Source: Bacillota bacterium
GTDB lineage: Bacteria > Bacillota_I > Bacilli_A > Acholeplasmatales > Acholeplasmataceae
Reading direction: 5' to 3'
DNA length: 64,000 bases
Assembly: GCA_018817915.1 (NCBI GenBank)
Contig: JAHISX010000084.1
Span: forward strand, 1-64,000
Position 1 is the first letter of the stretch. Every line of letters begins with the position of its first letter. Positions 9-3,140 of the stretch are shown here, in pieces. The notes under the pieces were generated by a model. It searched no databases and was not told where the DNA came from. It saw nothing but the letters and a program-made list of their open reading frames with translations. Both the position numbers and the translations under genes were made by a program.

Positions 9-162
9 AGGTAGTTGATCTCCTTATATGTGATGTTCGCACATTCATTATAACACGGGATTAACTACTCTTTTTATTATCTTAAAGAGTATAAAAATAT
101 GAAGAAAAGTAGGTCAAAAAAATCAATTTTTGACACTACCAAAAATATATAGGGGGTTTAGA

Positions 163-1329
163 ATGAAAAAAATTATTGCTGTAATTATGGTTTTTGCTGT
201 AATGTTTACATTATTAAATTTGACTTCGGTTTCTGCAATGAACGATAAAACAGAGTCTAATCTATTAGAGAAACAAAATGAGCAAGCTTACAAATTTAAG
301 ATGTTTAATGACATGATGAATGAAGAAAAAAATAATGTAAGCTTTAATGAAATCTATGGTGGAGTATATTTTGAGGATACAACATTATTTATCAATGTTG
401 TGGAACATAATGTTGAGCGGTTTAAAAACAATTATAACCTTGGAGTTGAATACGAAGTAAAAAATGTTATATATTCATTAAAAAAACTTGAAGAAGTTAA
501 GGAGATAGTGCTGCAAAATATAGCTGATTTGAAGATTCGAGAAATTTCTGTTGATATAATCAAAAATAAAGTTGTCATATTGTCAGAGTTACCAATCTCT
601 GAGTTTAAAAATAAATTAAGCAACGACATTGATTTTGACACGCTAGAAGTGAAAACACTGATTCCAGAAATTGATTACAACGTTAAATACACAGTTAATG
701 GCCATGCATATGTAATAAGACAAAGTCAATGTACCGTTGGTTTCGCAGCAAAAGATAGTAATGGTAATCCTGGGTTTGTTACAGCTGGGCACTGTGTAGT
801 GTTGTCAGGTTCAACTACTGGTACAGATGTATATTATGATGGTTACCATGCAGGTGATGTTGCCAGTGGATGGCATTTTGAGGATGGAGATGTTGATGGC
901 GCATTTATAAAATTAAGAGATCCATGGATTGGAACAACTTGGCTACCATCTAGAAGTTTAATATTCGGTGGATCATATTATACTGTAGGTACCTTTTCTT
1001 CCTATTATGCTATAGGTACTTCAGTGTCATTTCATGGAACTTTCGCTGCTGATGGTGGAATTAATACTGCAGTGGAAAATGGACAAATTACAGGAAATGG
1101 AATAACAATTATTGATGACAATTACAATGTATTATATGTTGACATGTTTTCTACTGATATAGAAACCCACCATGGCGATTCAGGTGGGCCACTGACACTA
1201 ACTTTCTACATTGGAGAAGGGTATTATGAAACTAATGTTATCGGAGTCCTAAGTTTGGGTATTGATGGTAACTCGTATTTCAGTAAAGCTATAAATATTC
1301 TTTCTGAATTGAATTTGTCTGTATATTAA
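163..1329 (+). CDS. Secreted streptogrisin/alpha-lytic-like S1 serine protease with signal peptide and propeptide
   Basis: Motifs CTVGFAAKDSNGNPGFVTAGHC (His), DVDGAFIKL (Asp) and HHGDSGGPL (Ser); hydrophobic N-terminus MKKIIAVIMVFAVMFTLL; RBS agggggt before ATG 163, so the start is moved from 130. Confidence 0.9.
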   Translation: MKKIIAVIMVFAVMFTLLNLTSVSAMNDKTESNLLEKQNEQAYKFKMFNDMMNEEKNNVSFNEIYGGVYFEDTTLFINVVEHNVERFKNNYNLGVEYEVKNVIYSLKKLEEVKEIVLQNIADLKIREISVDIIKNKVVILSELPISEFKNKLSNDIDFDTLEVKTLIPEIDYNVKYTVNGHAYVIRQSQCTVGFAAKDSNGNPGFVTAGHCVVLSGSTTGTDVYYDGYHAGDVASGWHFEDGDVDGAFIKLRDPWIGTTWLPSRSLIFGGSYYTVGTFSSYYAIGTSVSFHGTFAADGGINTAVENGQITGNGITIIDDNYNVLYVDMFSTDIETHHGDSGGPLTLTFYIGEGYYETNVIGVLSLGIDGNSYFSKAINILSELNLSVY

Positions 1330-1332
1330 AAG

Positions 1333-1352
1333 CACTCACATGAGTGTTTTTT
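1333..1352 (+). terminator. Rho-independent terminator after the protease gene
   Basis: CACTC-ACAT-GAGTG stem followed by TTTTTT. Confidence 0.7.
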
Positions 1353-1393
1353 GCAACTTAAGGGTCAATATAATGCGACTTAATATAAAGTAA

Positions 1394-1421
1394 TTGAATA
1401 TTTAAATTAATATTGTACAAT
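1394..1421 (+). promoter_or_regulatory. Sigma-A-like promoter of the LytTR gene
   Basis: TTGAAT (1394-1399), 16-bp spacer, TACAAT (1416-1421). Confidence 0.5.
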
Positions 1422-1437
1422 TTAAGCAGGTGATGTG

Positions 1438-1899
1438 ATGAAAGTTAAAATTATTTGTAAAGAAGAGAATTATGATAAATTTAGAAATATTTTCGAAGAT
1501 AATGGATTTATTATTTCAGATATAGCAGATTATTACTTTATAGAAGTTGATTTTCAGAGAAAGCAAATTATAGGTTGTGATTTCAAAGGAAATAGAATTT
1601 ATGCGAATTTAAATGAAATTTGTTTAGTACAAGCTAACACATATAAAAACAAAGTTCTACTCAAAAATGGAAGCGAACTTTTTGTGAATGAGAATTTAAA
1701 TTTTTTTGAAGCCGATATTTACAGTGAGATATTTATTAGAGCTAATAAATCTCAAGTTGTAAATATATCAGAAATTAGAAAAATATCACCACAAATTAAT
1801 TCTAGAGTTAAATTAACACTAAAAAATAACGAAATTGTATACATTACTAGAACGTATGTAAGTAAATTTAAAGAGTCAATTGATAGAAGGAGGAAATAG
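1438..1899 (+). CDS. LytTR-type DNA-binding domain regulator
   Basis: C-terminal half FIRANKSQVVNISEIRKISPQINSRVKLTLKNNEIVYITRTYVSKFKESI matches the LytTR pattern; no response-regulator receiver motif recognised in the N-terminus. Confidence 0.75.
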   Translation: MKVKIICKEENYDKFRNIFEDNGFIISDIADYYFIEVDFQRKQIIGCDFKGNRIYANLNEICLVQANTYKNKVLLKNGSELFVNENLNFFEADIYSEIFIRANKSQVVNISEIRKISPQINSRVKLTLKNNEIVYITRTYVSKFKESIDRRRK

Positions 1900-1901
1900 T
1901 T

Positions 1902-2540
1902 ATGATTAGATATATCATAGTTTTGGTGGTTTTAATTTTTATAATCAGTGTATACACCATTCTTTATTACCGTAGATTTAATAAGGCTCTAACAACTAGA
2001 CAAGTTAAATTATATAAACTTACACCAAGTGTTTTTATGTTGAGTCTTTTAATCATCACTTTAGTTGTTGGTTTTACTAGTTCTATAACTAGTGTATATG
2101 CTTTGGAAAAAAAGGTGGCAGAATTGGAGAATATTGAGATAACTAACATTTACTTGAACGAAGGATTCCCAAATGCTGATTTTGAGTATATATATACTTA
2201 CTACAATCAATTTTTCGGAGGTGGGTATTCTGAAAATGGTAGTATGGTAGTTTGCATTAGAGATGATTCACCTCAAGATTTGCTTGATTATTTGGATGAT
2301 AAAAATGTTTCATATACATTTGTTAAAAATAATTTCTCCGACTTATTGCAATTACATCAATTGATTGTTGATTCTAGACTCGATATTGATGTAAATATGA
2401 TAATTACTAATAATGAGAAGGAAAACAAAGTGGTTATTATAACCAGTGATGTTGAATCTATTACTGAAATGTTTCAAACATACGTTGACAGTGGAATTTT
2501 AGAAGTTAGTTATGGAGGGGAAATTCAATATCTAATATAA
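1902..2540 (+). CDS. Two-TM membrane protein with a ~140-aa probable extracytoplasmic domain, co-oriented with LytTR
   Basis: Starts 2 nt after the LytTR stop; hydrophobic segments IIVLVVLIFIISVYTILYY and VFMLSLLIITLVVGFTSSI; C-terminal domain resembles the propeptide of the adjacent protease. Confidence 0.75.
   Translation: MIRYIIVLVVLIFIISVYTILYYRRFNKALTTRQVKLYKLTPSVFMLSLLIITLVVGFTSSITSVYALEKKVAELENIEITNIYLNEGFPNADFEYIYTYYNQFFGGGYSENGSMVVCIRDDSPQDLLDYLDDKNVSYTFVKNNFSDLLQLHQLIVDSRLDIDVNMIITNNEKENKVVIITSDVESITEMFQTYVDSGILEVSYGGEIQYLI

Positions 2541-3063: not shown

Positions 3064-3140
<77 letters not shown>

Follow-up and report, generated by a model that had tools for sequence, protein, structure and literature searches.

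A stand-alone alpha-lytic-type pro-region in the membrane protein of a LytTR gene pair beside an S1 protease gene

A membrane protein encoded directly after a LytTR regulator in the window (the whole stretch of 64,000 nt that was analysed) carries a predicted extracellular domain that is homologous to the propeptide of the S1 protease encoded beside the pair, and genes of all three kinds recur together in other genomes. The recurrent triad points to a circuit through which the cell would detect its own protease and probably restrain it. Positions 1-2540 of the window form the start of contig G000:C39, in a home genome (G000) of 2.1 Mb. The named relatives of this genome belong to the Acholeplasmataceae: Peloplasma aerotolerans M4Ah (G006), MAG CSMAG_1207 (G002) and MAG HGW-Tenericutes-2 (G003). 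Peloplasma aerotolerans is a cell-wall-less, free-living mollicute (PMC11122141). The open reading frames and the sequence agree with the original prediction on the positions of the three genes and on the 2 nt that separate the LytTR stop from the start of the gene for the membrane protein with two transmembrane segments (two-TM protein). The order is S1 protease precursor, soluble LytTR regulator and two-TM protein, all on the plus strand. The features of the locus, including the repeats typical of LytTR Regulatory Systems (LRS), are:

163-1329, plus strand: secreted S1 protease precursor, 388 aa (Pfam Trypsin, E 1e-4; profile A2 against the PDB)
280-684, plus strand: protease propeptide, residues ~40-174, with a predicted alpha-lytic pro-region fold (AF2 model, Foldseek, profile A6)
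685-1326, plus strand: mature protease domain, its start placed to within a few residues from the alpha-lytic alignment
1333-1352, plus strand: hairpin CACTC-ACAT-GAGTG followed by T6, the likely terminator of the protease gene (read from the sequence; a scan lists the same hairpin on the minus strand)
1353-1361, plus strand: LRS direct repeat 1, GCAACTTAA, at the only place in the home genome that two spaced-repeat patterns match
1375-1383, plus strand: LRS direct repeat 2, GCGACTTAA, 13 bp past repeat 1 (spaced-repeat patterns)
1394-1421, plus strand: promoter TTGAAT-16 bp-TACAAT, whose -35 begins 10 bp past repeat 2 (promoter scan; distance kept in relatives)
1438-1899, plus strand: soluble LytTR regulator, 153 aa, with an alternative start at GTG 1435 (Pfam LytTR, E 3.8e-15)
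1902-2540, plus strand: two-TM membrane protein with an extracellular pro-domain, 212 aa (two hydrophobic segments; homologues in six other genomes)
2109-2537, plus strand: ectodomain, residues 70-212, a stand-alone alpha-lytic-type pro-region (AF2, Foldseek, hhalign)

The protease open reading frame extends from 130 to 1329 and has an in-frame TTG at 130, upstream of the ATG at 163; the ATG is the likelier start because a GGGGG-type ribosome site precedes it. Just upstream of the protease start, at window 108-141, lies an imperfect inverted repeat (GTAGGTCAAAAAAATCAATTTTTGACACTAC), a possible operator for another regulator. Downstream of the locus, a tRNA-Arg (TCT) is encoded on the minus strand at window 3064-3140.

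The protease has the hallmarks of the alpha-lytic class in both of its parts. In searches of the PDB, profile A2 matches alpha-lytic protease and its relatives through the mature domain (E 4e-11 to 1e-4). The catalytic residues His210, Asp245 and Ser340 are invariant in A2, within the S1 motifs TAGHC, D245 and GDSG. By this predicted catalytic triad and the homology of its mature domain, the window protease is classed as an alpha-lytic/streptogrisin-type S1 protease. Position 178 of A2 is aligned to residue 4 of mature alpha-lytic protease, and the alignment places the mature N terminus of the window protease near residue 175, with Glu169 about 5-7 residues earlier. For the pro-region, the best PDB sequence match of profile A6, which is made from eight protease propeptides, is 2pro_A (E 0.0013). 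Moreover, the AF2 model of the propeptide (pLDDT 85) has 2pro, 3pro and 4pro as its best seven Foldseek matches (E 4e-6 to 4e-5).

The homology of the ectodomain and the adjacent propeptide is firmly established, at a low sequence identity of about 15-20% between ectodomains and propeptides. A pairwise alignment alone was rejected as proof of homology, being too weak: the Smith-Waterman comparison of the ectodomain with the adjacent propeptide yields a marginal Z of 3.4, and its score was reached by 9 of 1000 shuffles. Profile A3 was made from four ectodomains and three lipoproteins, with zero proteases; when it was searched against the whole home genome, its sole matches were itself and the adjacent propeptide (window 262-582, E 7.2e-6). 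The same search of genome G063 found another protease propeptide (L050, E 1.5e-6) and, reciprocally, the protease profile A2 matches the lipoprotein L034 of G374 (E 2.7e-7). An hhalign comparison of A3 with A6 reaches 97.8% over 108 columns (E 1e-12), against at most 1.4% for 100 column-shuffled controls and 4% for a reversed control. The match between the C-terminal domain of the two-TM protein and the neighbouring protease's propeptide, first proposed from the letters of the DNA, is thus borne out by the A3 searches, the hhalign comparison, the reciprocal A2 match and the AlphaFold folds.

The structure prediction called for in the original prediction was carried out, and the predicted fold is that of the alpha-lytic pro-region for the ectodomain as for the propeptide. 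In particular, the AF2 model of the ectodomain (pLDDT 80, pTM 0.74), computed from an input alignment that excluded proteases, has alpha-lytic pro-region chains of 3pro, 4pro and 2pro as its top seven PDB matches in Foldseek (E 5e-4 to 1.4e-2, probability 0.96-1.0); the matches that follow have probabilities of 0.63 or less. The TM-scores between the ectodomain model and the pro-region are about 0.5 and some of the rmsd values are large, perhaps owing to the two sub-domains of the pro-region. The alpha-lytic pro-region in the PDB (2pro) is reached by the fold search and by the propeptide profile but not by the A3 sequence profile, and Pfam and NCBIfam returned no family above the cut-off for the two-TM protein, with chance matches only. 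The loop between its two hydrophobic segments contains six K/R and zero D/E; therefore the C-terminal 140 residues are predicted to lie outside the cell.

The ectodomain also ends at about the point where a pro-region ends. Its alignment with the propeptides extends through Glu207, the equivalent of protease Glu169, and the two-TM protein stops five residues further on; the remaining two-TM proteins and most of the lipoproteins terminate at about the same point. Since this is about the pro/mature boundary, the ectodomain resembles a cleaved pro-region whose C terminus is free. The C-terminal tail of the pro-region lies, in alpha-lytic protease, at the active site of the enzyme. The tail of the detached domain varies in sequence. 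As a separate observation, made post hoc on five sequences and useful as a lead only, the C termini of the protease-linked two-TM proteins lean to F, Y, L or I, as do the product ends of chymotrypsin-like proteases.

Seven genomes (G000, G002, G003, G006, G651, G637 and G638) were found to encode two-TM pro-domain proteins, several of the genomes in the study being MAGs of moderate completeness (75% for G651). The recurrent linkage that the original prediction asked for was recovered by the genome search: the protease, LytTR and two-TM genes are together again in G002 and G651, so that the triad is intact in three genomes and two families (G651 belongs to a different family, f16), with its order and orientation conserved. 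The G002 and G651 proteases are 59% identical, and the window LytTR is 36-39% identical to those of G002, G003 and G651. Peloplasma aerotolerans carries a decayed triad (L022 7462-8716), where the last 16 codons of a protease persist upstream as a scar, the LytTR gene is frameshifted and the two-TM gene is frameshifted near its first TM segment; in this genome, loss of the protease accompanied decay of the pair. Elsewhere the genes are found apart: in G003 the pair is intact with no protease next to it, and a pro-domain S1 protease is encoded at another locus (L088 5064-6260); G637 likewise has a pair with no neighbouring protease, G638 a two-TM gene with neither LytTR nor protease beside it, and G004 a protease without a pair. 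A scan of GTDB contigs with the two-TM alignment returned three loci, none beyond the set from the genome search.

Further, the stand-alone pro-domain occurs elsewhere as lipoproteins. On contig G651:C96, only 15 nt separate the gene of such a lipoprotein from a downstream gene for an S1 protease with a propeptide of its own (the protease is broken in the assembly), and the link between pro-domain and protease therefore exists without LytTR too. Such proteases and such pro-domain proteins are scarce in the class, with matches in 10 of 395 and 11 of 395 genomes, respectively; three triads and one other adjacency are thus far from chance. The triads may share one ancestral event or may have spread horizontally. 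Two further loci (L026 1026-2640 in G004 and L058 1501-3085 in G274) have a protease followed by a gene for a small lipoprotein (147 and 123 aa) that is unlike the pro-domain lipoproteins. Proteases with the same propeptide also lie near genes that, by eye, resemble those for phage terminase large subunits (L072 5894-10377 in G063 and L088 5064-10194 in G003), and could be phage cargo.

A recent duplication of the adjacent propeptide was considered as the origin of the ectodomain and rejected, as the ectodomains cluster with the lipoproteins (FastTree support 0.94; the IQ-TREE split has only 63). The original prediction's description of a membrane-tethered copy of the neighbouring propeptide consequently had to be given up: the ectodomain groups with free-standing lipoproteins instead. 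Because the ectodomain is closer to these lipoproteins than to the adjacent propeptide, a specificity matched to the neighbouring protease is not evident. Such lipoproteins also occur in genomes where a cognate protease was not detectable; five genomes (G184, G374, G445, G380 and G212) have stand-alone pro-domains, and only HtrA-like trypsins were found in them. The pro-domains could accordingly be general S1 inhibitors, or bait sensors directed against competitors, with the neighbouring protease incidental or a second user. This explanation takes in both the lipoproteins and the clustering of the ectodomains with them, but it leaves the recurrence of the triad in two families, despite the rarity of its parts, and the coincidence of protease loss with pair decay in G006 without a ready account, and we regard it as unlikely.

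It has also to be considered that the domain has kept the shape of a pro-region while sensing some other signal, with the linkage to the protease being historical. In addition to the low identity of ectodomains and propeptides and the orphan occurrences, four loci (L035, L038, L039 and L040) encode LytTR/two-TM pairs that have the same anchor and larger, unrelated ectodomains, and that form an uncharacterised LRS variety in Bacilli. In the light of these pairs, the pro-domain looks like a sensor that a modular type of LRS can exchange for others. Conservation of both the fold and the C-terminal boundary, together with the second type of adjacency, that of lipoprotein and protease, speaks against such a repurposing, which has a small probability in our estimation.

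The candidate LytTR sites bear on which gene the circuit would control. At six promoters, 9-bp direct repeats spaced by 12-13 bp are followed by a -10 box at +32/33 (0 of 5000 shuffles), and two held-out promoters (in G651 and G637) have the same layout, bringing the total to eight of eight related promoters; in the window, the -10 box is at +32. Across whole genomes, the spaced-repeat pattern occurs once in G000 and once in G002, at the promoter of the pair, and twice in G006, one of them there. The pattern alone is no proof because a reversed control pattern also has 0-2 matches per genome; position and geometry carry the weight. A search upstream of the protease with a trained matrix and two genome-wide patterns found no LytTR boxes, by a procedure that weaker sites could escape, and in none of G000, G002 and G651 was the repeat pair seen ahead of the protease gene. 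The candidate sites are confined to the region upstream of the pair itself. A tethered pro-domain that measures the outside protease, so that LytTR tunes transcription of the protease gene, would fit the adjacency and conserved order of the protease and the pair, as well as the control that LRS regulators exert on genes outside their own operons (PMC6193735). The lack of a repeat pair upstream of the protease in the three genomes and the hairpin and T run between the protease and the pair are at odds with such feedback, and it seems improbable.

A loop in which the pair senses the protease and protects the cell from it is favoured over control of the protease gene because the repeats are restricted to the pair itself. 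At rest, the membrane protein would keep LytTR inactive. The mature secreted protease, supplied by the adjacent gene or in trans, would then bind the tethered pro-region just as it would bind its own propeptide after cleavage, the free C-terminal tail lying at the active site or close to it; alternatively, the protease may digest the pro-region. LytTR, once freed, would bind the direct repeats at 1353-1383 and induce its own operon, generating more tethered inhibitor, and the loop would thereby sense protease at the cell surface and shield a wall-less membrane. We hold this loop tentatively, at slightly under an even chance. The pairs or genes without an adjacent protease in G637 and G638, the protease without a pair in G004, the five HtrA-only genomes, the closer kinship of the ectodomain with lipoproteins than with the adjacent propeptide and the variable tail all count against it. 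The original prediction had offered sensing, restraining or folding of the secreted protease, with a signal to the regulator; the structure and the gene linkage support that interpretation in part, and the circuit of sensing, restraint and signalling is what we infer from them. Of the three roles, folding is the least probable, since the protease retains a propeptide of its own. Alpha-lytic pro-regions are foldases, which would suit a tethered pro-domain that aids folding of the secreted protease in trans at the membrane, but the proteases found in this study carry propeptides of their own and such a role is highly improbable.

More broadly, the locus may represent a protease-immunity circuit, in which a detached pro-region is sensor and inhibitor at once and, when occupied, switches a transcription factor that raises production of the pro-region; we consider this a real possibility, though one that on balance may well not hold. 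Detached pro-regions may be a general bacterial way to feel secreted proteases, as the pro-domain is also found beside ECF sigma and RsgI-like genes. If the immunity circuit were true, it would show concretely what activates an LRS, a member of a widespread sensory class with thousands of putative operons; no activating signal was known for the systems studied in PMC6193735. Because the domain in the membrane partner has a well-understood binding partner, the mature S1 protease, the hypothesis about the signal can be tested directly.

Among known systems, the LytTR/two-TM pair is by sequence criteria an LRS. Similar to HdrRM, BrsRM and other LRS of Streptococcus mutans (PMC6193735), it is a two-gene operon with a soluble LytTR gene first (E 3.8e-15) and, after a 2-nt gap, the gene of a membrane protein with two hydrophobic segments. 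The described layout has 9-bp direct repeats with 11-13 bp between them and the -35 about 10 bp downstream; in the window, the repeats at 1353-1361 and 1375-1383 lie just upstream of the operon's -35 and resemble GCAACTTAG-11-GCAACTTGA of the SMU_1070c LRS (PMC6193735). LRS membrane proteins inhibit their LytTR partners (PMC6193735). Positive autoregulation is a further mark of the class. Unlike the described LRS, the two-TM protein matches no described membrane type (DUF3021, DUF2154) and bears an external protease pro-region, and a protease gene is linked; the membrane type is, however, not strictly required, and further varieties are expected (PMC6193735). The original prediction knew of no description of the arrangement. 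The pair belongs, as a variant, to an already described class (PMC6193735). Searches of the open-access literature yielded no description of LytTR together with a propeptide, or of a stand-alone alpha-lytic pro-region.

With respect to the alpha-lytic pro-region itself (PDB 2pro, 3pro, 4pro), the ectodomain shares the predicted fold, the sequence landmarks and the pro/mature boundary. Pro-regions of this type act as foldases and as tight inhibitors of the mature enzyme. The ectodomain differs in being encoded alone, membrane-anchored or as a lipoprotein, rather than fused N-terminally to a protease, an arrangement that only the neighbouring protease's own propeptide has. The closest likeness in role is to the subtilisin propeptide inhibitors of MEROPS family I9 (the Pleurotus inhibitor, SUB1-ProM and TgMIC5; PMC6993865), which are encoded apart from the protease and sometimes adjoin it; SUB1-ProM is the precedent for a stand-alone propeptide beside, and inhibiting, a protease (PMC6993865). 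Those inhibitors belong to another protease clan and fold and have no transcription regulator attached; the likeness is an analogy of role. With this locus, the stand-alone propeptides known among subtilases gain a counterpart in the alpha-lytic class, and one in a membrane-anchored form that is apparently coupled to transcription.

Three other loci place the propeptide or pro-domain next to signalling genes. In G445 (L032 1073-3067), an ECF sigma gene, an RsgI_M anti-sigma-like membrane protein (E 3.7e-12) and a pro-domain lipoprotein follow one another, a second type of coupling between the pro-domain and transmembrane signalling. In G286 (L117 4148-6869), an S1 protease with the same propeptide comes after a sigma-like gene and one for a small membrane protein, and in G380 (L070 3389-6411) a secreted stand-alone pro-domain protein directly follows an ABC ATPase, an FtsX-like permease and an apparent two-component pair. 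As in ECF sigma/anti-sigma systems, a transmembrane protein would hold a transcription factor in the window pair; unlike them, the pair uses LytTR and has no sigma factor.
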